NCBI GenBank assembly: GCA_913048295.1
Contig: CAJWWK010000006.1
Coordinates: forward strand, 1 to 64,000
Length of the DNA: 64,000 nt
Direction of reading: 5' to 3'
Source of the DNA: an uncultured Dehalococcoidia bacterium
GTDB lineage: Bacteria; Chloroflexota; Dehalococcoidia; Lucifugimonadales; Lucifugimonadaceae
The notes under the pieces were generated by a model. It was given only the letters and a program-made list of their open reading frames with translations. It was not told the DNA's origin and did not search any database. Positions 20,563-42,814 of this stretch are shown here, piece after piece; position 1 is the first letter of the stretch, and each line of letters opens with the position of its first letter. A program made the translations under genes and the position numbers.

Positions 20563-20617
20563 TTTAACGGAACCTGTCCCCTCTCCCTCGGTGGGAGAGG
20601 GGACAGGTTCCGTTAAA
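20563..20617. repeat. Perfect 25-bp palindromic element
   Basis: Two exact 25-base arms (20563-20587 and 20593-20617) flank a 5-base loop, TCGGT. Left arm begins TTTAACGGAACC and ends CCTCTCCC; the right arm is its exact complement. It lies between the convergent ends of pntB (20506) and the epimerase gene, whose stop codon (20613) falls inside the right arm. It can form a very stable hairpin on either strand, and TTTAA ends flank it, so it may act as a bidirectional terminator. Its regular CCTCTCCC/GGGAGAGG core resembles REP-like mobile palindromes more than an ordinary terminator. Confidence 0.9.
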
Positions 20618-21401
20618 AAGCTCCGTGAAGGTTGTCGGGCGGCGTTCGCCAGTCCTTGTTCCACAGGCCTTCGACGTGGTACCGCGGCTGCCATCCCAGG
20701 ACACGTTTGATTTTCTCGTTGTTGAACTTGCGGTGGGGTAGATCGGGAAACACGAAAAAAGTCTCGCAGCGGGTCGCCAGGCGTTCCTCTGGAACCTCAA
20801 CTGCGGCGCGTACGGCGGTCCCACAGTCGGGCCAGGCGGTGCTGTAGGGCGTCATGTCGTGGTGATACTCGGGGCCACCGGGTTCCATGCCACTCAGGTC
20901 CCACGAATGCTTCATGTTGTAGTAGAGCAGCGTAATGACCTGGATGCCGTGTCGTTCGCTAAATACCCGGCAAACTTCCTGTCCAAGGGCCTTGGTGTGC
21001 GCATACAGGCGTGTGCCGGAGGCCGGGGGCATATCGGGATTCAGGTCGAAGTCCCAGTTCTCGTACTGCATTCCGGCCATCTGGAAATGGGGACCCGAGT
21101 TGATAACTCGCGTGATTCCGTGCGTACGTGCCGCGACCATCATGGCGTAGTTGCCCATCACGTTGACGTCGAATGCGAGCTTTCTGTGGGGGCGCAGGAC
21201 GGACAGGTTGACGATCACATCCATACCTTCGGCTGCCTTCACCACCCCATCGACGTCATCGACTGAGAGTTGCAGGTATTTGCCCGTGTAATCGGAGTGT
21301 GGTTCGTTGATATCGGTGAGCAGCACATTGTGTCGGTTTATCAGTGCTCTGACAGCCCACGGTCCGAGCATCCCGTTGCCACCGAGGATCAGAATATTCA
21401 T
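20613..21401 (-). CDS. NAD-dependent epimerase/dehydratase (extended SDR)
   Basis: 262 residues from the ATG at 21401, which overlaps the stop of the upstream gene as ATGA; an in-frame extension to 21500 is rejected because it lies inside the coupled gene. MNILILGGNGMLGPWAV is the Rossmann GxxGxxG loop. VIVNLSVLRPH follows, and an equivalent of YxxxK is seen as YAHTKALGQE near 138. The C-terminus includes KFNNEKIKRVLGWQPRY, the usual substrate-domain motif of nucleoside-sugar epimerases. The last codons are within the palindromic element. The substrate is not predictable; the tandem arrangement with another SDR suggests a two-step modification. Confidence 0.82.
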   Translation of the reverse strand: MNILILGGNGMLGPWAVRALINRHNVLLTDINEPHSDYTGKYLQLSVDDVDGVVKAAEGMDVIVNLSVLRPHRKLAFDVNVMGNYAMMVAARTHGITRVINSGPHFQMAGMQYENWDFDLNPDMPPASGTRLYAHTKALGQEVCRVFSERHGIQVITLLYYNMKHSWDLSGMEPGGPEYHHDMTPYSTAWPDCGTAVRAAVEVPEERLATRCETFFVFPDLPHRKFNNEKIKRVLGWQPRYHVEGLWNKDWRTPPDNLHGAF

Positions 21402-22105
21402 TGCGTCAGCCTTCCTGCCAGACCCGGGAGCAACCTGGCTGCCGTGTCCGTAATAAATCGCTGGTTGGATACGGGCGACTGGATATGGATGTCCTGCCAT
21501 TGATCGAACTGATCGCTGCCTAGAGCCTCGGCCACAGCGGCACCAATCAGATCGTGCGAAATGGCTGCTGTGTCATCTGGTCCGGCGGACGAATCGGCAA
21601 CGAACGGCCAGCCCAGTCTCAGGTTTGCAACCTGGATCAGGCGGTCCCTGGCGAACTCCTTGCACACTGCTTCGGCGAGGTGTGCGCCCAGCAATTCGGC
21701 ATCCTCGGCTGATGGGTCGCTGCGCCACCGTTCAGTAACCACGAGGTTTTCCTCACGGTCTTCGAAAAGTCGAAGCGTACTGATGTTTATGTAGCGGCCC
21801 ACCCCGGCGTCCGAGGCGGCCTGCAGCAGGTTGTACATGCGGCGGGTGTGGTAATCCACAAGGTTAGGTGCCCCGCCAGTCTGGCCCTGGTAGCCGATAT
21901 TCACAATGGCGTCGATCCCTGCAACCAGGTCATCGGTGGGTTTGTCGTGGTCCAGATGGCAAGAAATCATCTCCGCGCTGCCCCCCCCGGTTGGGACCGG
22001 TGATTCGCCGGGAAGGTCGGTCAGCCGCAACTGGTGCGTTCCTGAGAGAGAACTGGCGATGATCTGCGCAGTTGCAGACGCCGCTGATGTTATTAGCACG
22101 TTCAA
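21398..22105 (-). CDS. NAD-dependent epimerase-like protein, divergent
   Basis: 235 residues. The start NVLITSAASATAQIIASSL is a Rossmann strand-turn-helix, but the usual GxxGxxG is degenerate (SAASAT). DAIVNIGYQG and YINISTLRLFED match the core strands of extended SDRs; the YxxxK pair is absent and the C-terminal domain is short, so catalysis is doubtful. It is translationally coupled to the complete SDR downstream. A regulatory or substrate-channelling partner is possible (inference). Upstream is a 73-bp divergent gap to the nuclease-like lipoprotein. Confidence 0.7.
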   Translation of the reverse strand: MNVLITSAASATAQIIASSLSGTHQLRLTDLPGESPVPTGGGSAEMISCHLDHDKPTDDLVAGIDAIVNIGYQGQTGGAPNLVDYHTRRMYNLLQAASDAGVGRYINISTLRLFEDREENLVVTERWRSDPSAEDAELLGAHLAEAVCKEFARDRLIQVANLRLGWPFVADSSAGPDDTAAISHDLIGAAVAEALGSDQFDQWQDIHIQSPVSNQRFITDTAARLLPGLAGRLTQ

Positions 22106-22178: not shown

Positions 22179-22757
22179 GTGGAGCCGTTCAGGTACAAAA
22201 TATATGCAGGCCATTTTCGATATCGGCTGGCTGTGGCTGTCGGTGCCCTGTTGTTGCTGGTCGCACTTTCGATGAGTTGCAGCAGTGCACCGGAGTTGCG
22301 CGGTGGTGCGGGCGACTCCAAAGCTGAGGTTACCGCCACACCGCCACTAGCGACCTCGCCTGACTCGGTGTTGCGTCCCGAATGCGAACTGGTTGATGTA
22401 GTCGAAGTAATCGACGCCAATACGGTACGGGCTTCGATTGGCGATATCCAGATGTACGGTGCCTACGTGGTGGACCAGCCCGCCGACTGCGCAGCCCTGG
22501 CGAAGGAAAGACTTACTGCAATGACCGGTGGTGCGATCCGCATCGAACCGGGCCCTACGAATACTGTGCGGAATAATTCGGCTCACTACTATCTCTTCAC
22601 CGCTGACGGTCGGTCGATCGAAGAACAGCTCGTCAGGGAGGGGCTGGCGCTGATCTGGATCCAGGACGGGGAGCACATGGATGGTTCGTCCTCGGGGACG
22701 CCAGGGCCAGAGACGCTGAGGCCGGGTGCCTGTGGCAGGGGTATAAAGCGTTTCTGA
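22179..22757 (+). CDS. Nuclease-fold (SNase-like) lipoprotein, catalytic residues lost
   Basis: 192 residues from a GTG. A hydrophobic signal of about 18 residues ends in VALSMSC, a lipobox-like cleavage site, then a Ser/Thr/Pro linker. The globular part resembles the staphylococcal-nuclease OB fold: VVEVIDANTVRASIGDIQMYGAYVVDQPAD aligns with the IDGDTV...VDTPE core and IEEQLVREGLALIWI with the VNEALVRQGLA strand. The second metal Asp is Asn (IDANT), Glu of VDTPE is not conserved, and the catalytic Arg of the R-x-L-A-Y region is absent. Binding rather than DNA cleavage is likely. It lies just before the lipoprotein paralog array, but 160 bp away and with a different domain. Confidence 0.55.
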   Translation: MEPFRYKIYAGHFRYRLAVAVGALLLLVALSMSCSSAPELRGGAGDSKAEVTATPPLATSPDSVLRPECELVDVVEVIDANTVRASIGDIQMYGAYVVDQPADCAALAKERLTAMTGGAIRIEPGPTNTVRNNSAHYYLFTADGRSIEEQLVREGLALIWIQDGEHMDGSSSGTPGPETLRPGACGRGIKRF

Positions 22758-22919: not shown

Positions 22920-23489
22920 TTGACCCACCAAATGACCTCGCGAAGGCGCAGTTTACCGATCTTGGTTTCTGGACTTGTTCTGTTACTGATAACCGCAGGC
23001 GCGTGTGGTGGTACTTCGGAAGATGACCTGTTCCCGCAGATAAGTGATCCGGGCCAGACGGTCACTGTCGAAATGTTGCAGTCGACCCCGTTTAAGCAAT
23101 CGAAGGAATACGCGCTTGAGGGTCTGCCGGGAGCGACGTATGTCGGTTACGGGTTTCTGCGTGTGGGTGGGGGTGATCCCTACGGGTACGAGGTCAGGTT
23201 CTACGAATCACATCAGCAGGCGGTTGAGCTGGGCACTGCACTGGCCATCGAAGGTTCAGGGAAAAATGCGATATTGGACGCGGACGAAGCCAATTACAAA
23301 GAAGGCGTTACAAACCGCCGCGTGATTATTGGCAGCGGTGTCGGCGGTGGCGCCCGCAGCGGGATAGGACCGAGGTTCGGAAGCTACGTAATCTTTGGTA
23401 ACATCGTGATGCTCTGCGAGGGGTCGGACGAGGCGCAATCGATTGAGCGATGCGGGCTTCTGGCGAACGAACTTATCCCGAATGAATAG
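22920..23489 (+). CDS. Unrecognised lipoprotein family, member 1
   Basis: About 189 residues from the TTG at 22920, chosen because GGAGG ends 5 bp upstream; an ATG four codons later is the alternative. Signal peptide ending TAGAC with a lipidatable Cys, then a short acidic linker. The domain shares with its neighbours: a VTVEML helix start, KQSKEYALEGLPGATYVGYGF, YEVRFYESHQQAVELGT, EGVTNRRV, a glycine-rich loop, and YVIFGNIVMLCEG...SIERC with a C-x11-C pair. No known family recognised. First of four tandem paralogs. It overlaps the next gene by 8 bp, so they are co-transcribed. Export and lipidation to the cell surface is inferred. Confidence 0.8.
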   Translation: MTHQMTSRRRSLPILVSGLVLLLITAGACGGTSEDDLFPQISDPGQTVTVEMLQSTPFKQSKEYALEGLPGATYVGYGFLRVGGGDPYGYEVRFYESHQQAVELGTALAIEGSGKNAILDADEANYKEGVTNRRVIIGSGVGGGARSGIGPRFGSYVIFGNIVMLCEGSDEAQSIERCGLLANELIPNE

Positions 23490-24048
23490 CGTCAAGAACC
23501 GTCCGACAAACCTGCTGTTTCTATTCGTGATTTTCTTTACTGCGGCGACAATTTCCGGGTGTGGTTCCAGTTCAGACGGTGCATCGGGAGCAATTTCGTT
23601 TGAAAAAATCTCCGATAACGGTGTGATTCTGAGCATCGACGACGTCAAAGCGGCCGGCTGGAAACGGGGCAAGGAGTACGACGTTGAAGGCCTTACGGGG
23701 GCTGAAGCGGCCTATCTTGGATTCTGGTCTCCACCCGGGCTTACGTCGTTGAACTATGAAATACGGATCTATCCCTCTCACCAGGCGGCGGTCGAGCAGG
23801 GTACGCCATTCGCGGAGGAAGGTACCGGCGAAAACGCCGTTCTGGACGCCGAAGATGCGATGTGGCCCGAAGGTGTTCATGATCGCAGGGTCGTAGTGGG
23901 TGGTGGTTCGCGCGGCAGCCAGAACCCTCTTTATTTCGATTACGTAATACTTAACAACCTTGTAATACTGTGCGAGGGCCGCACATCGGAACATGCTATA
24001 GAGCGATGCACGCCTTTCGTCACCCTCTTGCTTGTTGAAGGTGCATAA
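23482..24048 (+). CDS. Unrecognised lipoprotein family, member 2
   Basis: About 188 residues from the ATG at 23482, which overlaps the end of member 1. Signal segment LLFLFVIFFTAATISGC with lipobox ISGC. Domain features aligned with member 1: LSIDDVKAAGWKRGKEYDVEGLTG, YLGFW, YEIRIYPSHQAAVEQGT, a TGENAVLDAEDAMWPEG segment, VHDRRVVVGGG, and YVILNNLVILCEG followed by a C-x11-C pair ending ERC. Sequence identity to the neighbours is clearly well below that of a recent duplication. No catalytic motif seen. Confidence 0.8.
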   Translation: MNSVKNRPTNLLFLFVIFFTAATISGCGSSSDGASGAISFEKISDNGVILSIDDVKAAGWKRGKEYDVEGLTGAEAAYLGFWSPPGLTSLNYEIRIYPSHQAAVEQGTPFAEEGTGENAVLDAEDAMWPEGVHDRRVVVGGGSRGSQNPLYFDYVILNNLVILCEGRTSEHAIERCTPFVTLLLVEGA

Positions 24049-24206
24049 TGCTGACGGGCATCCCGGCTGACCGGTTTGTGTGTGCGTATATTCGATCGGA
24101 CCGAATGACTACCGAGTTGCGGGGATGTATATTTGGCGGATCGACCGTTTCGCGAAATTTTATGACGCCAAAATGGTGGGCGCGAATGCCGACAGGGAGC
24201 CAGGTT

Positions 24207-24779
24207 ATGAAAAAGGCAAACAGTGGCAAGGCACGGCTGCTGATCTTGCTATTAGCAGTGACTGCACTATCGGTTGCTACGGTTGCATGTGGCAGTGACA
24301 GCAGCGGTGGTGGCTCGTCATCGGACGGGCCAATTGCCAAAATTGACGCCACAGAACGCATTTACACGATTCAAGACTTTATTGATGCGGGGTTCAAGAA
24401 GGCCAAGACTTATGACGTGGAGGGCCTGCCCGAGGCCTTAGAAGTGCTCTACGGCTTCTACGGCGTGGATCCTTACAACCGACAAGAGTACGAAGTGCGC
24501 TTCTACCCAAGTCACGCCGAAGCGATCGCTACGGGAATTGACTACGCAGACGAAGTGACGGGCCCCGACGCTGTGCTGCTGAAGGACGTTCAGCGTTATA
24601 AAGAGGGTTTGCGTGAGCGACGGCTGTGTACAGGGAACGGTGGCCACCACGTTGGCAAGTGCGATCTGCCCAAGTACTTCGACTATGTCGTTGTCGGCAA
24701 TATGATCCTGCTCTGCCAGGGCAAGGACTCGTCAATATCGTTGCAGAACTGCGCCGACATGATGGCCGTGGTGCAATAG
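24207..24779 (+). CDS. Unrecognised lipoprotein family, member 3
   Basis: 190 residues from the ATG at 24207 (AGGGAG upstream); a reading back to 24048 has no signal peptide in the right place and is rejected. Lipobox TVAC after LLILLLAVTALSVATVAC, then a Ser/Gly linker. The domain has YTIQDFIDAGFKKAKTYDVE, VLYGFYG, YEVRFYPSHAEAIATG, TGPDAVLL, EGLRERRLC, and YVVVGNMILLCQG with C-x11-C. It carries an additional C-x10-C pair (RRLC ... GKC) in the loop after the RR, shared only with member 4. The 158 bp before it is the longest gap in the array. Confidence 0.8.
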   Translation: MKKANSGKARLLILLLAVTALSVATVACGSDSSGGGSSSDGPIAKIDATERIYTIQDFIDAGFKKAKTYDVEGLPEALEVLYGFYGVDPYNRQEYEVRFYPSHAEAIATGIDYADEVTGPDAVLLKDVQRYKEGLRERRLCTGNGGHHVGKCDLPKYFDYVVVGNMILLCQGKDSSISLQNCADMMAVVQ

Positions 24780-24782
24780 GCG

Positions 24783-25334
24783 TTGGATCAAGTCAACCGG
24801 GTCGATAACAAGATTGTTACAACTCTGGCGTTGACGGTAGTTTTTGCCGTGCTGGCAGTGGCCTGCGGCACCGATGCTGGCAGCGGGGGGGCAGTCCCGA
24901 GGGTGGTCGCGAGCGATCGTGTTTACACCATCGATGATCTGACGGGTGCGGGCGCAAAGACGGTCAAAGATTACGACGTCGAAGATCTGCCCGGCGCAAC
25001 AGCCGTTTGGAAGTCTGTATTCAACAAACTTGACTACGAGGCGCGTTTCTACCCCACGCATGATGATGCCGTGGCCCAGGGGACCTCGTATGCCGACTCG
25101 GTGACCGGCGACGATGCAGTCGTTACGGGCGACGACATTTTGTGGGACGAGGGTAAGCGCGATAGAAGAAAATGCAGTCGGGCGGCAGAAACCCCGCATT
25201 CGAGTTGCACATATTCGGCCCGGTACCTGGAATACGTTATTCGCGGGAACATGATCCTGTTCTGCGAGGGCAACGAATCGTCAGACGCTTTTGCAAATTG
25301 TGGGAACCTGCTGGCGTTGATTGACCCGGTGTAG
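24783..25334 (+). CDS. Unrecognised lipoprotein family, member 4
   Basis: 183 residues from a TTG at 24783, 3 bp after member 3. Lipobox AVAC after VVFAVLAVAC. The domain has YTIDDLTGAGAKTVKDYDVEDL, YEARFYPTHDDAVAQGT, VTGDDAVV, EGKRDRRKC and YVIRGNMILFCEG with C-x11-C. It shares with member 3 the extra C-x10-C pair (RRKC ... SSC). It is followed by an intrinsic terminator at 25398-25421, which closes the array transcript. Confidence 0.8.
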   Translation: MDQVNRVDNKIVTTLALTVVFAVLAVACGTDAGSGGAVPRVVASDRVYTIDDLTGAGAKTVKDYDVEDLPGATAVWKSVFNKLDYEARFYPTHDDAVAQGTSYADSVTGDDAVVTGDDILWDEGKRDRRKCSRAAETPHSSCTYSARYLEYVIRGNMILFCEGNESSDAFANCGNLLALIDPV

Positions 25335-25397
25335 GAAATACGCGGGACGGGATTCTGATTGCGGTGCGGAAATCGTTCGTGCCTTTGAGTAACAAAT

Positions 25398-25421
25398 CGG
25401 CAACGTTGTTGCCGGTTTTTT
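25398..25421 (+). terminator. Intrinsic terminator of the lipoprotein array
   Basis: A 7-bp stem (CGGCAAC / GTTGCCG) with a 3-base loop is followed by GTTTTTT. It is placed between the convergent stops of lipoprotein members 4 (plus) and 5 (minus) and points along the plus strand. Confidence 0.8.
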
Positions 25422-25460
25422 ATTATCTTCACCGACACGCCACTGTCCGCAGGCCGCTTG

Positions 25461-25979
25461 CTATTCCTCCAGCGCGTCGATGAGGGATTCACAGGTGGCC
25501 AACTCGCGTTCGCACAGCATGACCATGTTCCCTACGATCGCATAGGCCGGGTACAGGTTAACGACGGGTATCAGGTAGTCGCGCTGCCCTGCCTTTTTAC
25601 CGATCACCACCTCGGCCGGTTCCACACCCAGCTCGATTGCGGCGGTGTGGGACTCGTAAAAGCGAACTTCGACATCTTTTTGCCGGAAGAAGCCGTACCA
25701 GATGTCGGTAGTGCCAGGAAGAGTATCTATTTCGAACTGCTTGCTCTTCTTGAAACCGACAGCGACCAGGTCGTCAACCGTGTAGCTCGCGTCAGGGCGG
25801 GTTATCAACCGGATGCCCTCTTCGTCGGGCGTGCCAGGAGCGGGCTCACCTGAACCCACAGTATCGGTCGATGAACCGCAGCCAGAAGCGGCAACGACGA
25901 AAAGCAAAGCAAATGACAGCCATAAGATCATTGCAACTCTGGCTGTGTTGATTCGACTGTCGAATGCCTGACTACGCAA
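25461..25979 (-). CDS. Unrecognised lipoprotein family, member 5 (inverted)
   Basis: 172 residues; TTG start with AAGGA about 9 bp upstream. Signal segment LWLSFALLFVVAASGC with lipobox ASGC. The domain has YTVDDLVAVGFKKSKQFEIDTLPGTTDIWYGFF, VEVRFYESHTAAIELG and YAIVGNMVMLCE, as in the tandem members, but the glycine-rich loop is replaced by a shorter segment and the cysteine pair is C-x6-C rather than C-x11-C. That and the DIWYGFF motif place it with member 6 at 42 kb in a second subfamily. Convergent with the array. Confidence 0.8.
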   Translation of the reverse strand: MRSQAFDSRINTARVAMILWLSFALLFVVAASGCGSSTDTVGSGEPAPGTPDEEGIRLITRPDASYTVDDLVAVGFKKSKQFEIDTLPGTTDIWYGFFRQKDVEVRFYESHTAAIELGVEPAEVVIGKKAGQRDYLIPVVNLYPAYAIVGNMVMLCERELATCESLIDALEE

Positions 25980-26158: not shown

Positions 26159-28003
26159 CTAACTGGCTTTAAGAGCGTGAAGGACCAGTCCCCACGTGAG
26201 GTGCCACGAGGCCTCGTTCACGTAACCGGAGACCTCTCCACCCAGCGGCCAGTTCGTCCATCGCTTCTCACTCATGATGATGCGGTGGTAGAACTCGAGG
26301 ATTGGAACGTCCGGGAGCTCGTCGAGCCAGATTTCCATGGCGTCGTGCCACAGTTCCTGCATCTTGTCCACGCTATCGGGGTGAGTTCGACCGACTTCGT
26401 CAGTGAGTTCGTCCCACTTGGCGTCTTCCCAGTTGTAGAAGTTCACCTGGTGACCACCAGGAATGTTCACTGAAGACGACTGGTAAAGCTTCATGGTGAA
26501 GTACGGGTCACGGACCGATCCGCCGTGTCCGAACATCAGGCACTCGAAGTTACCTTCAGCCATTCGTGAAGAGGCATCGGGTGGCTGCGAGTACGTAGCG
26601 TTGATGCCCTGTCGTACCAACTGCTCTGCAACGAGGGGGCCGAGGTCGACCCACGGGCTGAACCCGATGATTCCACAGTTGATGCCAACACCCTGGGCGT
26701 CGACCCAGTTGCCATCACCGTCCTTCGAGTAGCCAGCGCTTTCCATCCGGGCGTCGCCCTTCGAAACACTGAACTCGGTGGTGTCATGGACAGCCAGGAT
26801 GTCCGACACAGAGTCGAAGTACTTCTGGAGCGGTGGGTACTGCGGCAGCGTAAGCGGGTTGAATGCCGCGTTGCCGTCGTAGGCCACATCTCTCAACTCT
26901 TCACGGTCGAGGAAGTAGCTGAATGCCCAACGTACGTCCTTGTTGTCGTACGGACCGAACTTACCGGAGTCATTGAAAGCAATGGATACCGGCCACCAGT
27001 CGACGTATCCATACGGGGCGTCGCTCTTGGTGTGTGTCACTAGATCTGAGTTCTTGGCCAGCGTGTCAACAATAACGGCAGGTGTCGTCATGGCTGAGTA
27101 GTCGACCGTGTCAGAAATCATTGCCTGCGCCCTGGCCGTCTGGTCGGGAGTTGGCAGGTAGATGACACGTTTTGGTCCGGGCAGCTTGCCGAACTGACCG
27201 AGGTCAGACACGCCTTCGCCCCACCACGAGTCGAGGCGGTCGATGATTTTCTGCTCTGGAGTTCCTGAAACGACTTTCCACGGGCCCGTCGAAAGCGGCC
27301 AGCCCTTTGCGGGGTCGTAGTCCTTGAACGTAGTCCAGTCCTGGGTGCTGTAGTGGTGCTCGGGCACCATGTACACGCCAATGTCGAACTTGTACGTAAG
27401 GAGGAACATGAACCGTGGGTCCGGGCGATCCAGAATCACCTTGACGGTGAGGTTATCGACTTTTTCCGCTCGGTTCATTGCTTTGTCAATGTCGGTACCC
27501 CAGCGGACTTCTTCCTTGAGGTCCTTGAGGGTGTTCAACGTGTAAACAACGTCGTCGGCATTGAACTCTTCACCGTCGGACCAGTTAATTCCTGACCGAA
27601 GGTTGATCGTTAGTTCAGTATAGTCACCGTTCCAGTCCCAGCTCTCGGCGAGCCACGGAATCGTCTTGTCGTCAAACGCACTGAAGAATGCGAGTGGCTC
27701 GAAGATGATGTTCGGACCAGACTGGTGGTTGGCACCAATTGCGTAGGGGTTCCACAGTTCGTGGTCTACGAATCGGCCCTCAGCACCACCCAGGTAGCCG
27801 ATGAACGTGTCGTCGCGGTCAATGTCCGCGATCCCACCAGTGCTAGCAGGCGGTGCCGGTGCCGTTGTGGCAGTCGCGGCCGGTGCACTTGTCGGTGCGG
27901 GTGCGGCCGCTTCCTCTTCGTCACTCGAACAAGCAATCGCAGCAACAAGTGCAATTGACATCATTGCGATGAAGACAATTCTCCATCTCTCATTAAATAT
28001 CAT
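26159..28003 (-). CDS. ABC transporter substrate-binding lipoprotein, family 5
   Basis: 614 residues from the ATG at 28003, chosen for the GGAGG 6 bp upstream; a reading to 28075 is rejected. Signal segment with lipobox IACSS, then an Ala/Pro/Thr linker of about 30 residues. The mature part is a family 5 extracellular solute-binding protein (dipeptide/oligopeptide/nickel type): [26 protein letters not shown] is the family signature, and the C-terminal half has the [14 protein letters not shown] segment. It captures a peptide, oligosaccharide or similar ligand outside the membrane. Divergent from its presumed permease/ATPase operon, which allows separate and higher expression of the binding protein. 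Confidence 0.9.
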
Positions 28004-28077
28004 GCTGACCTCCGAATAAATGTCAGACGCGCTTACAGAAACGCCATCTCTTGGCAGTTTTTTATCTGTGAGCAAGT

Positions 28078-28106
28078 TTTATATCCGAATCCACCTTGCC
28101 CGTCAA
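28078..28106 (-). promoter_or_regulatory. Sigma-70-type promoter of the binding protein gene
   Basis: On the minus strand, TTGACG (28106-28101) and TATAAA (28083-28078) are separated by exactly 17 bp. Predicted initiation near 28071 leaves a 5' leader of about 68 bases before the GGAGG site and ATG at 28003. The rest of the 379-bp divergent region (28004-28382) shows a possible TATAAA at 28299-28304 for the permease operon without a good -35 hexamer, and nothing else recognised. Confidence 0.65.
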
Positions 28107-28382
28107 CATCGCCAGGCGTCTTCGGCTGCCGCATTTAGCAACTTCAAATCCGTTGTTAATACCCCTTGAGACGCAATATGATTCACGTTCGCAGATGATT
28201 AAGTAAGACGTGATGGTTCAACGGCTGTTTCAGTACAAACGCTATTTATCCGGTACCGGACATAGCCAGCAGCACAAACAGTTGCTATCTTTGGTCGCTA
28301 TAAAATTCCGAACGGTCGGCCACGCGTTTCACCGACCAGTAATTTCTTCAGAATTTCCACCACCACCACCCGAATTGAGTTT

Positions 28383-29465
28383 TTGCCCTTGACAGAACAA
28401 ACGCAGGGTATTGAAAACACGCCGAATCCGGTCCTGAGTAATGTTTTCCGGATTATCTCGGCAGTACTTAGTAATTTCGTAGTGAGGCGCTTCTTCTTCT
28501 TCCTGTTCGTCGTCTGGCTGGCAAGCACAGTGATTTTCATCATCCCTCGTCTTTCCGGTCAGGATCCGGTCAAGGAGAAACTGCTGCTGGAGGCACAGCG
28601 AGGTGGTGCGATTCAGCAGGGCCTTGACGAGATGGCGAAGCACTATCAGAAGCGGTTCGGGCTCGACAAGCCGATCTGGGTCCAGTACGGGAACTTCCTT
28701 TCCGATCTGGTCCGGTTTGACCTGGGGACATCAATTGCTTTCTTTCCTCGGACAGTCAATGACATCGTATTCGAATCGCTGATCTGGACTCTCGGGCTAA
28801 TGGGTACGGTGACGGTGATGGCGTTCACTTTGGGGACGCTCGCGGGCGCGGTTCTGGGCTGGCCCAGACGGCCCGGATGGGTTCAGTACGTTTTCATGCC
28901 GTTACTGACCCTTGCCGCGATACCCCAGTATTTGCTCGGCATGATCTTAATATTTATCTTCGCGTTCAAACTGGGTTGGCTCCCGCTGTTTGGCGGCTAC
29001 GAACCGGCCACTCTGCCGAATCTGAGTTTCGATTTTGTTGTTGATGTGCTGAGACACGCGATTCTGCCGGCTTTCGCCATTCTGTTTTCAGTCGTTGGCT
29101 TCTGGGCCATTGGCATGCGGGGAATGATGATCAATGCCCAGGGCGAGGACTATATGGTCCAGGCCGATGCGAAGGGGCTCAAAGGCGCACGCATTTTTAT
29201 GCGGTACGCGGTGCGAAACGCCTTGCTGCCGCAGGTAACCGGCCTGGCGCTGGTGTTGGGAACGATCATTACAGGACAGGTTCTGGTGGAGCGGGTCTTT
29301 TCGTATCCCGGCATCGGCGACATTTTGTTCCAGGCCATCCGTCTCTCCGACTTTTTCGTAATTCGAGGCATCGTGGTCATCATCATCGTCGGAATCGCAG
29401 GTGCTACGTTTTTGCTCGATGTCCTCTACCCGCTAATCGATCCCAGGATCAGGGTAAGGAATTAG
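28383..29465 (+). CDS. ABC transporter permease, DppB/OppB type
   Basis: 360 residues; six membrane segments. After a cytosolic N-terminus comes VVWLASTVIFIIPRL, a large periplasmic loop, then the core helices, the EDYMVQADAKGLKG equivalent of the EAA loop that contacts the ATPase, and a final VIIIIVGIAGATFLLDVLYPLIDPR typical of the BPD-transport type 1 family. The start is a TTG; a second TTG two codons later is equally possible, and no strong ribosome-binding site discriminates. First gene of the permease/ATPase operon; the following gene begins 3 bp after its stop. Confidence 0.88.
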   Translation: MPLTEQTQGIENTPNPVLSNVFRIISAVLSNFVVRRFFFFLFVVWLASTVIFIIPRLSGQDPVKEKLLLEAQRGGAIQQGLDEMAKHYQKRFGLDKPIWVQYGNFLSDLVRFDLGTSIAFFPRTVNDIVFESLIWTLGLMGTVTVMAFTLGTLAGAVLGWPRRPGWVQYVFMPLLTLAAIPQYLLGMILIFIFAFKLGWLPLFGGYEPATLPNLSFDFVVDVLRHAILPAFAILFSVVGFWAIGMRGMMINAQGEDYMVQADAKGLKGARIFMRYAVRNALLPQVTGLALVLGTIITGQVLVERVFSYPGIGDILFQAIRLSDFFVIRGIVVIIIVGIAGATFLLDVLYPLIDPRIRVRN

Positions 29466-29468
29466 GCG

Positions 29469-30440
29469 ATGACGCAAACGGCTACTACCCCCGACGTTAG
29501 CGAATCAGGCGAGCTTAGTGGCGGCTGGGGTCAATTTAACGTTGAACGCCTGAGGCCCATCAAACGATACGCGCTGCGTAACCCTTCGCTTATCGTCGGT
29601 TTGGGTTTGATGTTCAGCCTGTTGTTGTTCGTTGGCATCGGGCACCTCGTGTGGGATACCGAACAGTACCGTGTTCTTTCCACTCCCACGCGACTTCCTC
29701 CGTCTTTGAACTATGAAATCGAGACGGGAAAGCTGGCGGGCCAGGTTAAGTCTTACCCGTTTGGAACCGATACACAGGGACGCGACCTTCTTGCGGTGGC
29801 CATCAAGGGCACGCCGCTCACGCTGCGAATTGGGTTGATCGCCGGATTCGTATCGATCGGTTTGGGAACGGTAGCGGCATTCGTGGCCGCTTACTACCGT
29901 GGTTGGGTCGATACTGGCGTACGAACGGTCGTGGACGTCGGGCTGGCGATGCCGGGCCTGTTGATCCTGATCCTGGTCCGGATCAACATCGGACGCGAGC
30001 TTAGTGTCGACGAGATGGGATTCGCCCTCGGCCTGGTCGGGTGGGTCTTCCCTGCACGAACTATTCGCGCGCAGGTCCTGGTGATGAGAGAGCAGGCATA
30101 CGTTCAGCTCTCGCGTCTTTCAGGAACAAGCGGAATGGGCATCATATTCAAAGAGATGCTGCCGAATTTGATTCCCTATATCACGGCAAGTCTTGTGGGG
30201 GCGGTTGCGGGAGCAATTCTGGCTTCGATTGGTCTTGAAGCTATCGGTCTCGGCAAATTCGGCGACCCGACGCTGGGTATGACGATCTACTGGAATATTC
30301 AGTTCTCGTCGATCATTCTCGGCATGTGGTGGTGGTGGTTACCGCCGCTGGTTGCGATCGTGATTGTTTTCCTTGGATTGTTCTTGATTTCATCGGGTCT
30401 GGATGAATGGTCCAACCCACGATTGAGGAAACGTGTTTGA
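29469..30440 (+). CDS. ABC transporter permease, DppC/OppC type
   Basis: 323 residues; six membrane helices. LIVGLGLMFSLLLFVGIGHL is the first segment; HPFGTD-like PFGTDTQGRDLL near 97-108 is the DppC signature. The EAA loop is AYVQLSRLSGTSGMGIIFKEMLPN near 220, and GLFLISSGLDEWSNPRLR closes the protein. Pairs with the upstream DppB-type permease to form the translocation pore. Its stop overlaps the start of the next gene. Confidence 0.9.
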   Translation: MTQTATTPDVSESGELSGGWGQFNVERLRPIKRYALRNPSLIVGLGLMFSLLLFVGIGHLVWDTEQYRVLSTPTRLPPSLNYEIETGKLAGQVKSYPFGTDTQGRDLLAVAIKGTPLTLRIGLIAGFVSIGLGTVAAFVAAYYRGWVDTGVRTVVDVGLAMPGLLILILVRINIGRELSVDEMGFALGLVGWVFPARTIRAQVLVMREQAYVQLSRLSGTSGMGIIFKEMLPNLIPYITASLVGAVAGAILASIGLEAIGLGKFGDPTLGMTIYWNIQFSSIILGMWWWWLPPLVAIVIVFLGLFLISSGLDEWSNPRLRKRV

Positions 30441-31468
30441 GCACTGAACAGGCAATAACAACCTATCGAGAGGGCGCCCGTATAACCGACGTCGACTCAC
30501 TTGTGGTCGAAGGACTGTCGGTCTACTACGAAACGGAAGACGGGACCGTAAAAGCGGTAGACGACGTTTCGTTCACCCTGAAGCAGGGAGAGCGTTTCGC
30601 ACTTGTTGGGGAGTCGGGCTCGGGCAAGACGACCCTGGCTATGGCCCTGATGCGATTGACCCGCCCACCCGGTCACATTGCCAGGGGCAGTGTGACTCTC
30701 AACAATCGGGACCTTACAACACTCACCGAGGACGAGATGCGGCAGGCACGCCTTTCCGAACTGGCCCTGGTCCCGCAGGGTGCCATGAACTCGCTGAACC
30801 CGGTCATGCGGATTGAGCGGCAGCTCACTGATGGCATTGTCGACCACCTTGCCGATGACGAGAGCATTACCAAGAAAGAGTTGAGTCAGACCGCCCGCGA
30901 TCTCCTGACACGGGTTGGGCTGAGGCCAGAAGTTGCCCGCCTGTATCCACACGAGCTTTCGGGTGGGATGAAGCAACGCGTGGCTATGGCCATCGGAATA
31001 TCGTTGCGGCCCAGTCTGATAATTGCGGATGAACCCACATCGGCACTCGACGTTGTAGTGCAGCGCCAGATCATGCAGACGCTCGGTCGGTTGCAGGAAG
31101 GTCTGGACGCATCAATCATGCTTGTCGGCCACGACATGGGCCTGGTGGCCCAGTTCGCCGATACGATCGGGGTGATGTATGCGGGCAAGTTGGTGGAAGT
31201 TGGACCGGTTGAAGATGTGTTCGGCGATCCTAAACACCCTTACACGAAGCTCCTGATTCAGAGCCTGCCTTCGCTTCAGGAAAAAAAGGATTTCGTCGGA
31301 ATCCCCGGTCTTCCGCCACTACTTATCCACCTTCCCCAGGGTTGCGCATTTGAAGACCGGTGCCCGTCACGTTTCGGCAAATGCACCGGCGCGGTTCCCG
31401 AAAAGCTTTCCGTTGGAGCCCGCAGAGATGTCGCATGTTTCCTGTATGAAGGCGAGGGCGCATCTTGA
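30437..31468 (+). CDS. ABC transporter ATP-binding protein, DppD/OppD type
   Basis: 343 residues from the TTG at 30437, which overlaps the preceding stop as TTGA and has GAGGAA 7 bp upstream; I prefer this to an ATG at 30407 inside the permease gene. Walker A GESGSGKTTLAMAL near 70, signature LSGGMKQRVAMAIG, Walker [13 protein letters not shown] and switch His GHDMGL. The C-terminal oligopeptide extension has the cysteines of CAFEDRCPSRFGKCTGA...DVACFLYE, typical of DppD/DppF proteins. Confidence 0.92.
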   Translation: MSTEQAITTYREGARITDVDSLVVEGLSVYYETEDGTVKAVDDVSFTLKQGERFALVGESGSGKTTLAMALMRLTRPPGHIARGSVTLNNRDLTTLTEDEMRQARLSELALVPQGAMNSLNPVMRIERQLTDGIVDHLADDESITKKELSQTARDLLTRVGLRPEVARLYPHELSGGMKQRVAMAIGISLRPSLIIADEPTSALDVVVQRQIMQTLGRLQEGLDASIMLVGHDMGLVAQFADTIGVMYAGKLVEVGPVEDVFGDPKHPYTKLLIQSLPSLQEKKDFVGIPGLPPLLIHLPQGCAFEDRCPSRFGKCTGAVPEKLSVGARRDVACFLYEGEGAS

Positions 31469-32517
31469 GCGCGTTTATTGAGCTCGAACACGTTACGAAG
31501 ACCTTTGGCAGCTCAGGCCTTTTTGGTGGCGGTTCGGTGACCATTGCCGTCGATGACGTCTCTTTGACTATCGATGAAGATGAGCCAGCGATCACTACTG
31601 TGGCCGGTGAGAGTGGGAGTGGCAAGACGACGCTCACACGCCTGCTTCTGGGTAGTCATGTGCCTACCGATGGCCGGATGCTTTACCGCGGCAAGGACTT
31701 TACAAAGTTGACGCGCCGTGAACGGCGGGCGTTCCAGCGCGAGGTCCAACCCATTTTCCAGGACCCGTTTGAATCGTATAACCCGTTCTACAAGGTCGAT
31801 CACGTACTCGACGCCCCGATCAAAAACTTCAAACTGGCTGGCTCTGTCGCCGAAAAGAAGAGGATGATTGAGGATGCGCTTGAGATGGTCGGTCTCGTGC
31901 CGGAAGAGACGCTCGGCCGCTTCCCTCACCAGTTGAGCGGTGGTCAGCGCCAGCGGATTATGGTGGCCCGTGCGCTGCTGCTAAAGCCGCGGGTTATCCT
32001 CGCTGACGAGCCGGTATCGATGGTGGATGCGTCGCTTCGAGCGACCATTCTTGACTCGATTCGCCGCCTGAACCGCGACCTGGGCATTTCGGTCGTGTAT
32101 ATCACTCACGATCTCACGACTGCGTACCAGATCAGCGACAACATCCTAGTGATGTACCGTGGAACGATTGTCGAGGCGGGCACAGTCGATGCGGTGATTC
32201 AAAGCCCGCAGCACCCGTACACGCAACTGCTTATCGAGTCGATTCCCCAGCCCGACCCGAAGAACCGATGGGGTTCGGAGCCGCCGCAGCAGAACTGGGA
32301 GATAACCGACACCGAGATCACCGGTTGCAAGTTTGCCGACCGGTGCCCGGCGGTGATGGACCGTTGTCACACCGTACGTCCTGCACAGTACCTGATTGGC
32401 GAGCATCAGCTGGCCACATGCCTGTTGTACGAAGACAAGGGCGAGATGACCAACCCGGACATCACTTCGACCTTCCAAACGGAGAAGCAGGCAATCACGG
32501 CGGCGGCCAGCAACTGA
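31465..32517 (+). CDS. ABC transporter ATP-binding protein, DppF/OppF type
   Basis: 350 residues; TTG start again overlapping the previous stop as TTGA. Walker A GESGSGKTTLTRLLLG near 50, signature LSGGQRQRIMVARALL, Walker B VILADEPVSMVD and switch His THDLTTAY. The C-terminal Cys-rich extension is CKFADRCPAVMDRCHTV. Completes a full transporter with the two permeases and DppD-type ATPase. Convergent with the redox lipoprotein gene, 2 bp apart. Confidence 0.92.
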   Translation: MSAFIELEHVTKTFGSSGLFGGGSVTIAVDDVSLTIDEDEPAITTVAGESGSGKTTLTRLLLGSHVPTDGRMLYRGKDFTKLTRRERRAFQREVQPIFQDPFESYNPFYKVDHVLDAPIKNFKLAGSVAEKKRMIEDALEMVGLVPEETLGRFPHQLSGGQRQRIMVARALLLKPRVILADEPVSMVDASLRATILDSIRRLNRDLGISVVYITHDLTTAYQISDNILVMYRGTIVEAGTVDAVIQSPQHPYTQLLIESIPQPDPKNRWGSEPPQQNWEITDTEITGCKFADRCPAVMDRCHTVRPAQYLIGEHQLATCLLYEDKGEMTNPDITSTFQTEKQAITAAASN

Positions 32518-32519
32518 GT

Positions 32520-33788
32520 TTACGGACCGAATTCGAAAATTCCGAAGGTGATCGTGTAAACGGCAAGACCTTCGGAATTTATCGTTAACTTCAGTTCGTG
32601 TTTGCCAAATTCAGGCAGTGCAGCGATCTGGTAGAGACGTGTTTCCTTGACTCGGACCACACTATTTCCGGCTGAGTCCCATTCGATGTCGGCACCCGCT
32701 TCGTCTTGCGAGAGTGGACGGCCATCGATCTCGACGACCACCAGATGCCCGTCCTCCCCGGCGCCGGCCGGAGTCGGTTCGGAGTTGCCAAGCACGGCGT
32801 TAACGGAGGTCGCAAAAAAGTCGAACGCAAAATACGTGCTGTCTGCCTCGGATCGATTCGCGGTAACCACCGCGTTGACCAAGTTCATCCAGACTCCGTC
32901 AAGATAGAACTGGCCTCGCCTGCGCGTGCCATCGTCGGAGTATTCGACTTCAACGTCGGGTGCCTCGTAGTAAACATCCTGTCCAGCATAGAGACCGTCC
33001 GCGAGGTAGTTGTTCTTGTAACCCCCGTATAGCTCTCTGGTGACTGCGTGTGCGGCGTCTGAACGTCGTGGTTCGGTAACGCTTGAGCGAGCTACTCTCG
33101 AAAGATCATTACCGGCTGCTTCCAGTTCCGTGCGGATGACCGATTCGGTCTGGTCATAGCCTCCCTCCCCAAAGTGTCTGAAGACCACTTCCCCACTGGC
33201 ACCTATCAGGTATTTCGATGGCCAGAAGTGGTTTCCATACCTGTCCCAGGTCTCCTTATTGCCATCGAGCGCTACCGGATAGGTGAGATCGTACCGCTCG
33301 ACTGCCCTTTGTACGTTAAGCGGCAGTTTCTCGAATTCGAATTCAGGGGAGTGCACGCCTATCACTGTGAGGCCGTGCTCGGCGTAGGTCTCGTACCAGG
33401 CGCTCAGGTAAGGGAACGTGCGTACGCAGTTGATGCAGGTGTATGTCCAGAAATCTAGCAGGACTACCTGGCCTGAACCGATTAAGTCGTCAACTGAAAG
33501 AGGGCTTGAATTTATCCATCCGTCAAGACCGATGAGTTCGAGATCGTCAATCGCGAACGGTTCTGGCTGCCCTATAGGTGCGAACTCGCTGGCGGGTGGC
33601 GTTGGCGTGACGGTCGGGGGCAGCACGTCAGCCTTTGACGGCGTTGACGGCACCTCTGCCGGTGGTGAGTCACCGCAGCCTGTTACCAGCGTCATGGCGA
33701 TGGCAGCTGCAGCAAGCAACAGGCTAATCAACTTGATTGATAATCGGATCTTCAAACCAGGTTCCAGTTCGAAGAAATAACGGTGCAT
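32520..33788 (-). CDS. TlpA/DipZ-like thioredoxin-fold lipoprotein
   Basis: 422 residues. Signal segment and lipobox LVTGC, a Pro/Thr linker to about residue 70, then a thioredoxin domain VVLLDFWTYTCINCVRTFPYLSAWY with a C-x2-C active site (CINC). EFEFEKLPLNVQRAVERYDLTYPVALD and the following WPSKYLI (cis-Pro region replaced by WPSKY) match the C-terminal half of mycobacterial DipZ and its free-standing relatives, including the extra beta-rich domain after the thioredoxin fold (VVVEIDGRPL). Role: extracytoplasmic disulfide reduction or delivery of reducing power. The CcdA-like membrane partner is absent nearby. Its last codons form the left and right arms of the convergent hairpin at 32537-32580. 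Confidence 0.82.
   Translation of the reverse strand: MHRYFFELEPGLKIRLSIKLISLLLAAAAIAMTLVTGCGDSPPAEVPSTPSKADVLPPTVTPTPPASEFAPIGQPEPFAIDDLELIGLDGWINSSPLSVDDLIGSGQVVLLDFWTYTCINCVRTFPYLSAWYETYAEHGLTVIGVHSPEFEFEKLPLNVQRAVERYDLTYPVALDGNKETWDRYGNHFWPSKYLIGASGEVVFRHFGEGGYDQTESVIRTELEAAGNDLSRVARSSVTEPRRSDAAHAVTRELYGGYKNNYLADGLYAGQDVYYEAPDVEVEYSDDGTRRRGQFYLDGVWMNLVNAVVTANRSEADSTYFAFDFFATSVNAVLGNSEPTPAGAGEDGHLVVVEIDGRPLSQDEAGADIEWDSAGNSVVRVKETRLYQIAALPEFGKHELKLTINSEGLAVYTITFGIFEFGP
32537..32580. terminator. Hairpin at convergent gene ends
   Basis: Perfect 13-bp arms AAATTCCGAAGGT and ACCTTCGGAATTT enclose an 18-base loop. It follows the stop of the DppF-type gene (32517) by 20 bp on the plus strand, but it lies inside the last codons of the minus-strand redox lipoprotein gene. 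Symmetric A/T ends could let it act both ways; the coding constraint makes this a weaker call. Confidence 0.5.
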
Positions 33789-41256: not shown

Positions 41257-41832
41257 TCACGACAATTTTCGAAAGCGTATCGGAAAAACAGGGGACGGAA
41301 CCTGCCTTACGCCCGTTTTCCCGTCAACCTGAACTACTCGATTCGACCAATCAGGTATTCCCATAGATACGAGTTCTCCTACCCGTACACCAGTATCAAA
41401 AAGCACGGTGATCATTGCCTGGTCTCGCACACCATTTTGGGTCGATTGATCGCATGCTGAGATAAGTTTCAGTATTTCAGAATTTGTGTAAGTAGGCTGT
41501 GGATCAGTCCTGAATCTCACCAGTTACATGCATGCACTTGGGTCTTGCTCGATCTCTTTTTCATCGATAAGGAATCGAAAGTACCTGCGAAGACCTAGCT
41601 GAGCGGCAGCTACAGTTTTAGGTTTCACTGGGCCTGAGAGCCAGTCGATGTAGCTTCGGATGTGGTCGGTTTTGATATTACCGGGACCAATCCAGTCGGT
41701 CCGCTCTCCCAATCGACGTACCTCACGCACGTAACAGAAGATGGTATGTGCCCTCAAACCCTCTACTTTCGGATATAGAGCAAAAGAGTCCAAATAACTG
41801 ACATGACCGACTGCTCTATTTGGATATTTCAT
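41257..41832 (-). pseudogene. Tyrosine recombinase remnant
   Basis: From the ATG at 41832 (AAGGA upstream) an N-terminal SAM-like core-binding domain is seen: RAHTIFCYVREVRRLGER and VAAAQLGLRRYFRFLIDE. A TAA at 41521-41523 interrupts the same frame exactly where the linker leads into the catalytic domain, which continues YTNSEILKLISACD, then VLFDTGVRVGELVSM with the first catalytic Arg. The protein stops at 41257, about 20 residues after that, losing the second Arg box and the Tyr. The 3' end of the remnant runs into GGTTCCGTCCCC, a sequence related to the palindrome at 20563. Neighbouring tRNA 74 bp upstream is a typical integration site. Confidence 0.8.
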
Positions 41833-41905
41833 GTTCAATTTCCTTGGTTCATCATTTTGGTGAAATAGGGAAGTTGAACATGAAATCAACGACCAAAGAG
41901 CTGTA

Positions 41906-42256: not shown

Positions 42257-42814
42257 ATGGCGTACGCCACCCACACCTCACACGACGCCCCGCTCCTGAA
42301 ACACACACGCTGGCTGCTGTTGCTAATGTTCACAACGGCCTTCGCACTCGCCCTTGCCTGCGGAAGCTCGGACTCGTCCGATGACGCGGCAGCCCCGGCA
42401 TCCGGCGGCGAGGTCGTGGACGATGCGCTCTCCGAGGTCTCCATCACAATGCTGGCCGACCAGACCTTCACCTTCGAAGATTACGTCGCGGCTGGCTGGA
42501 AGAAAAATAAGCAGTTCCCGACCGACACCGTGCCCGATGCCACCGACATCTGGTACGGCTTTTTTAGCGCCAAAGACATCGAGATCAGGTTTTACGACTC
42601 GCACGAGATCGCCTCGACATCAGGGGCGGCAAACGCGGCTGAGGCTATCGACCAGAGTTTCCGTGAAGGCGGCTCAATCGGGGCCAGCAACCGGGGTGCC
42701 GGTTCGTCGGCCGTCATCAAGTTCAAGGCGTTTGCCGTTGTTGGCGACACGGTGATGCTGTGTGAGTTGTCCATCGATTCTTGCATCGCACTTGCAGACG
42801 CGCTCGCCAAATAG
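42257..42814 (+). CDS. Unrecognised lipoprotein family, member 6
   Basis: 185 residues from the ATG at 42257. Signal peptide ending LALAC, then a Ser/Asp/Ala linker. The domain has FTFEDYVAAGWKKNKQFPTD, ATDIWYGFFSAKDIEIRFYDSHEIA, a Ser/Gly loop and FAVVGDTVMLCELSIDSC (C-x6-C). It is closest to member 5 (25461-25979): both share KKxKQF, DIWYGFF and the short cysteine pair. Lies alone, 17 kb from the array, between a tRNA and a membrane protein gene on the other strand. Confidence 0.8.
   Translation: MAYATHTSHDAPLLKHTRWLLLLMFTTAFALALACGSSDSSDDAAAPASGGEVVDDALSEVSITMLADQTFTFEDYVAAGWKKNKQFPTDTVPDATDIWYGFFSAKDIEIRFYDSHEIASTSGAANAAEAIDQSFREGGSIGASNRGAGSSAVIKFKAFAVVGDTVMLCELSIDSCIALADALAK

Follow-up and report, generated by a model that had tools for sequence, protein, structure and literature searches.

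An array of DUF6810 lipoprotein genes conserved beside an Opp/Dpp-type ABC importer in SAR202-type Chloroflexota

The lipoprotein genes and the neighbouring importer

The window analysed is a stretch of 64,000 nucleotides from an uncultured marine Dehalococcoidia bacterium of the SAR202 type. Five adjacent open reading frames between 22920 and 25979 and one more at 42257-42814, to which an earlier note had drawn attention, are present and encode proteins of 172-190 residues. Slots 1 to 4 of the array (22920-23489, 23482-24048, 24207-24779 and 24783-25334) lie on the forward strand and are of a long type with a C-x11-C pattern, while slot 5 (25461-25979, reverse strand) and the solitary member outside the island (42257-42814, forward strand) are of a short type with C-x6-C; this division into two subtypes, also put forward earlier, is borne out by the six-row alignment. 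Slot 2 begins with an ATG at 23482 and shares its first 8 nt with the end of slot 1; slot 4 starts just past the stop of slot 3. As slots 1-4 run in one direction and the start of slot 4 abuts the slot 3 stop, these four genes probably form one operon. Slot 5 is convergent to them and lies 183 bp downstream of a substrate-binding-protein gene, with which it is co-directional.

The relatedness of the six proteins is confirmed by an alignment over their full length with 13 invariant columns, two of them cysteines; the YExRFYxSH and GNxVxLCE regions also align across all six. The shared motifs listed in the earlier note hold approximately and not literally, as member 4 has neither KK nor YGF and member 2 reads ILSIDD. 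Its description of the family as unrecognised does not stand, since all six proteins match Pfam PF20650 (DUF6810), with E values of 9e-49, 2e-51, 3e-47, 2e-38 and 3e-22 for slots 1 to 5 and 7e-15 for the solitary member, and scores of 55.6 to 174.2 bits, against a curated membership cut-off of 25 bits for the whole protein. The remark that no known domain is present keeps some truth in that DUF6810 has no described function. PF20650 was matched by all 31 aligned members; the long-type members cover nearly the whole model, whereas the short-type ones are devoid of its middle loop and match in part. No NCBIfam model exceeded its cut-off for the six proteins, a sequence search of the PDB gave no credible relative, and a literature search found DUF6810 named in no paper.

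Other genes lie around the array. A lipoprotein gene just upstream of slot 1 (22179-22757) has no Pfam match; read by eye, its product bears a likeness to a degenerate staphylococcal-nuclease-like domain, and a similar gene occupies the same place in the related locus L109 (7347-7925). Further upstream, the region 20613-22105 holds an epimerase-like gene and a neighbouring open reading frame without a Pfam match, both of which also stand beside the array in L079 and L109. Near the solitary short-type member at 42257, an open reading frame of 121 aa (41527-41889) carries a phage-integrase N-terminal domain.

Directly beside slot 5, positions 26159-32517 encode a complete family-5 importer. It comprises a substrate-binding lipoprotein (SBP_bac_5; 26159-28075, reverse strand; PF00496, E 1e-50) and, on the forward strand, permeases of the OppB/DppB type (28383-29465) and the OppC/DppC type (29469-30440), both matching PF00528 and matching the NCBIfam Opp-type B and C models, respectively, below cut-off, followed by ATPases of the OppD type (30407-31468) and the OppF type (31465-32517), each with an ABC_tran domain and an oligo_HPY tail. 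These five neighbouring genes make the same complete set as in Opp/Dpp-type importers (SBP_bac_5, BPD_transp_1 and oligo_HPY ATPases). Standard systems of this type use one binding protein and are not known to be accompanied by a conserved array of lipoproteins from another family. The importer operon is followed immediately by a gene on the opposite strand for a thioredoxin/AhpC-like protein with a Thioredoxin_10 domain (32523-33788).

Family-5 proteins that bind mannosides or chitin oligosaccharides (E 1e-26 to 1e-22) are among the nearest binding proteins of solved structure, as is one annotated as oligopeptide-binding. Nearby genes encode a gluconolactonase-like protein, a UxuA-like sugar-acid dehydratase and an enolase-superfamily enzyme. 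These relatives and sugar-acid-type neighbours make a glycan or a sugar acid a possible substrate of the importer, though the substrate class is a guess resting on relatives of low identity.

Distribution, linkage and age of the slots

The six genes of the window are not the whole complement; the own genome (2.4 Mb, 89% complete) carries about 21 DUF6810 genes on many contigs. The domain was found in all 18 other genomes of the genus that were searched and in 51 of 250 genomes of the order, 49 of these 51 belonging to one GTDB family. An even sample of the phylum gave DUF6810 in only 2 of 400 genomes, the own genome being one of the two, and the named relatives carrying it are SAR202 cluster and Dehalococcoidia MAGs. 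DUF6810 hardly occurs outside one GTDB family of SAR202/Dehalococcoidia-type Chloroflexota. Phage and plasmid records gave no DUF6810 match.

Copy number is also high in small genomes. In genus g5 (genomes of about 1.3 Mb; L104-L108 and L112-L114) many dispersed DUF6810 genes were seen, including a divergent clade with weak model scores, and the 1.3 Mb genome G041 has 31 matches, some of which may be parts of one gene. Members stand beside transposase-like open reading frames in L083 (573-2816) and L091 (G000:C96), and the L091 member is very close to one from another GTDB family (L116, support 100), which is possibly due to horizontal transfer or mis-binning.

Most of the other members in the own genome stand alone at scattered sites next to unrelated catabolic genes, and they share no common partner; read by eye, their neighbours include sulfatases, enolase-superfamily enzymes, TPP enzymes, dehydrogenases and housekeeping genes. 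Most DUF6810 copies of the own genome have no family-5 binding protein near them, and therefore the family as a whole does not need the importer. A tie of the whole family to family-5 transporters was ruled out, DUF6810 neighbours being found at only one of the nine family-5 loci of the own genome.

The association with one particular importer, by contrast, is strong. Counting the own genome, 36 genomes of the GTDB family have an orthologue of the window binding protein (over 900 bits and 66-91% identity, or a contig-cut fragment at 69%). In 29 of these genomes the contig continues for at least 1.5 kb on the 3' side of the orthologous gene, and all 29 carry a DUF6810 gene no more than 2.5 kb from it; the other seven orthologue loci are close to a contig end, and a DUF6810 gene is still visible in two of them. 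Other family-5 loci had no DUF6810 neighbour in any of 20 cases (12 paralogous loci in relatives and 8 in the own genome). The difference between orthologous and other loci (Fisher p 4e-14) is only a guide, as the draft genomes are related to one another. The linkage recurs in seven genera and is never seen at the paralogous family-5 loci examined, which strongly supports the earlier suggestion that the ABC-transporter neighbourhood matters.

Presence and absence follow the same pattern. Among 76 genomes, 35 have both DUF6810 and the orthologous binding protein, 26 have neither, 14 have DUF6810 only and one has the binding protein only (p 5e-9, kinship of the genomes being ignored). Contrasts occur within genera as well: in g9, G035 has both while G026 and G044 have neither, and neither is present in G028 of g11 or in G544 of g12. 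In G534, the genome with the binding protein alone, the gene is followed by 371 bp of contig, and in G016, which has the DUF6810 array alone, the contig stops right after three array genes; as both loci end with their contigs, these exceptions may be assembly gaps.

The arrangement of the genes is also retained. In g1, g3, g4, g9 and g11 the binding-protein gene is followed after 31-221 bp by a co-directional DUF6810 gene, and the long-type members run convergently towards the short-type gene. Wherever the spacing is readable the gene beside the binding protein is of the short type, except in G010, G005 and G031, where the search for the Cys-spacing pattern returned 13, 11 and none, respectively. 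Genus g12 has no short-type gene next to the binding-protein gene; in g5 about 0.9 kb separates the binding-protein gene from the closest member, which is of the long type. Synteny is retained in related genomes, and the array and the importer form an island conserved across genera, an observation that is new here.

The age of the slots was read from a tree of 101 rows, obtained by a quick search with SH-aLRT support, in which L078 orthologues stand in for window slots 4 and 5. The slot-1 clade (support 99) spans genera g1, g4, g9, g11 and g12; the slot-3 clade (95) and the slot-4 clade (97), which holds the slot-4 orthologue L078:4207, also cross genera. For slot 2, g1 is grouped with g12 (SH-aLRT 94). 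The short type is one clade (SH-aLRT 95) with the member at 42257 within it, and some slots show later local duplications (L109, L115). Repeated duplication, as claimed earlier, is therefore true; the cross-genus clades of slots 1, 3 and 4 indicate that the duplications are old and that the slots did not arise recently as local copies.

Export, conserved residues and predicted fold

All six window proteins have a signal peptide and a lipobox-like cysteine, and the strict lipobox pattern is present in 192 of 221 family members, the rest being mostly truncated or having a near-miss lipobox. The lipoboxes support the earlier view of secreted, lipid-anchored proteins, with lipidation as a prediction. 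Each of the two Cys columns is a cysteine in 202 of the 205 members aligned there. Among 218 aligned members, a conserved Gly is found in 216 of 216 and the Asn of GN in 205 of 206, and the Lys, Glu, Arg, Tyr and His of the β1/β3 region are 90-97% conserved. Because the charged residues of YExRFY alternate along a single strand, they should lie on one face, as a candidate shared site. Whole-gene dN/dS of the five slots between the window and L078 is 0.08-0.20, dS being high in these comparisons and saturated in those with the more distant L079. The slot genes are under purifying selection, unlike the diversification of surface-antigen-like genes.

AlphaFold2 models were built on 31-row alignments for one long-type member (pLDDT 93.1, pTM 0.88) and one short-type member (pLDDT 84.1, pTM 0.81). 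The predicted topology is α-β-β-β-α-β-β-α. In the model, one of the two cysteines closes the final strand and the other sits in the final helix, positions which are consistent with a disulfide.

Foldseek gave no match below E 0.001 against the PDB and viral models. VIA-align placed the extracellular domain of PknH (4esq) first for both models (Z 5.4 over 102 residues at 3.9 Å, and Z 5.7 over 118 residues at 4.7 Å); for the long model, TiME/Rv3705c ranked third (Z 4.2, 111 residues, 4.7 Å). As these Z values fall in the range that the tool calls common, the predicted likeness to PknH and TiME is only a lead. PknH_C (PF14032), a sensor domain marked by two disulfides and a V-shaped ligand cleft, and the related mycobacterial lipoproteins resemble DUF6810 in being a small exported Cys-containing domain that occurs in several paralogous lipoproteins; DUF6810 displays no detectable sequence similarity to PknH_C, has one conserved Cys pair instead of two disulfides, and is joined to no kinase. 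PF14032 had no match in the own genome at E≤1, none was reported among the 31 members scanned against Pfam, and the genomes searched held no clear member. Searches by profile and by fold for a characterised family, taken together, led to DUF6810, for which no function is described, and to no confident fold match.

Other candidates were rejected. The protein-kinase N-lobe shares only the order of strands and helix (Foldseek E 0.05 or worse), and type III chaperones and YbjN are reminiscent in topology, but with E 0.1 or worse and TM of about 0.27 (Foldseek).

Possible roles of the array proteins

The linkage facts support a functional link between the array and the importer, and the keeping of a set of DUF6810 genes beside one importer across genera suggests that they help in catching or sensing its substrate. 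Linkage alone is not proof of physical or functional coupling. The favoured reading, held tentatively and somewhat short of an even chance, is that the array proteins are lipid-anchored accessory ligand-binding proteins which capture or present ligands for the adjacent importer. The array and the Opp/Dpp-type importer would then be one inherited functional island, in which small α/β domains, exported, lipid-anchored and probably stapled by a disulfide, may sit on the external side of the membrane around the importer. The short-type member would probably be made together with the binding protein, and the long-type members from the convergent operon. Most likely, each slot would offer its own small-molecule binding surface, and would either capture a substrate class and present it to the shared binding protein or report substrate occupancy. 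The substrates may be glycan-like rather than peptides, and the dispersed paralogues may serve other uptake or catabolic functions in a similar way. Against this reading stand the 14 genomes with DUF6810 in which no binding-protein orthologue was detected. Between surface binding and signalling, the roles named in the earlier note, we can only infer.

An unlikely alternative is that DUF6810 proteins are PknH-like ligand sensors, whose cleft would bind a small molecule and which would pass the signal on to partners in the membrane; the expression or activity of the importer would be one output. PknH 4esq heads the VIA-align rows of both models (Z 5.7 and 5.4), and TiME/Rv3705c, reported with a PknH-like domain, is third for the long-type model; however, Z values below 8 with rmsd of 3.9-4.7 Å are within the noise that the tool describes, neither Foldseek (below E 0.001) nor PF14032 (in the own genome) gave a match, and no signalling partner is seen in the island. 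Envelope assembly appears quite improbable: rings, tubes or a surface coat would carry solutes to the importer, as proposed for TiME, which has been reported to form a nutrient-uptake tube (PMC11434571). Several distinct paralogues kept together would fit a hetero-oligomer, and TiME is among the fold matches (Z 4.2), but this match is weak, most own-genome copies are scattered singletons, and the lipoboxes point to individual membrane anchoring.

It is also rather unlikely that the linkage is historical, general-purpose envelope lipoproteins having arisen next to the importer gene and remained in place with no functional coupling to it. Most other copies of the own genome do lie without a nearby importer, and in the small-genome genus g5, with up to 31 matches, most are outside the island. 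Such a history alone hardly explains, however, the order and orientation kept across genera, the contrasts of presence and absence within genera, or the tight spacing between the binding-protein gene and the downstream DUF6810 gene. A further arrangement that may be considered is multi-receptor capture, in which one importer would be served by a fixed set of several different small lipid-anchored DUF6810 receptors, retained in different genera, in addition to its own binding protein, with dispersed receptors elsewhere in the genome; this arrangement is regarded as doubtful.

Bacteria of the SAR202 type occur in large numbers in the ocean and have been connected with the breakdown of resistant organic matter. 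Expansions of enzyme paralogues in SAR202 have already been published (PMC6946804); the literature search found no account of a SAR202 surface lipoprotein expansion of this size, and a search on accessory lipoproteins found nothing. With this conserved tie to a single importer, a domain of unknown function becomes the subject of a testable hypothesis of uptake or sensing, and the first place to look is now apparent, namely the slot proteins together with the binding protein. Multi-receptor capture, if true, would be an uptake layout distinct from the usual importer with one binding protein, in a lineage whose food is believed to be recalcitrant dissolved organic matter.
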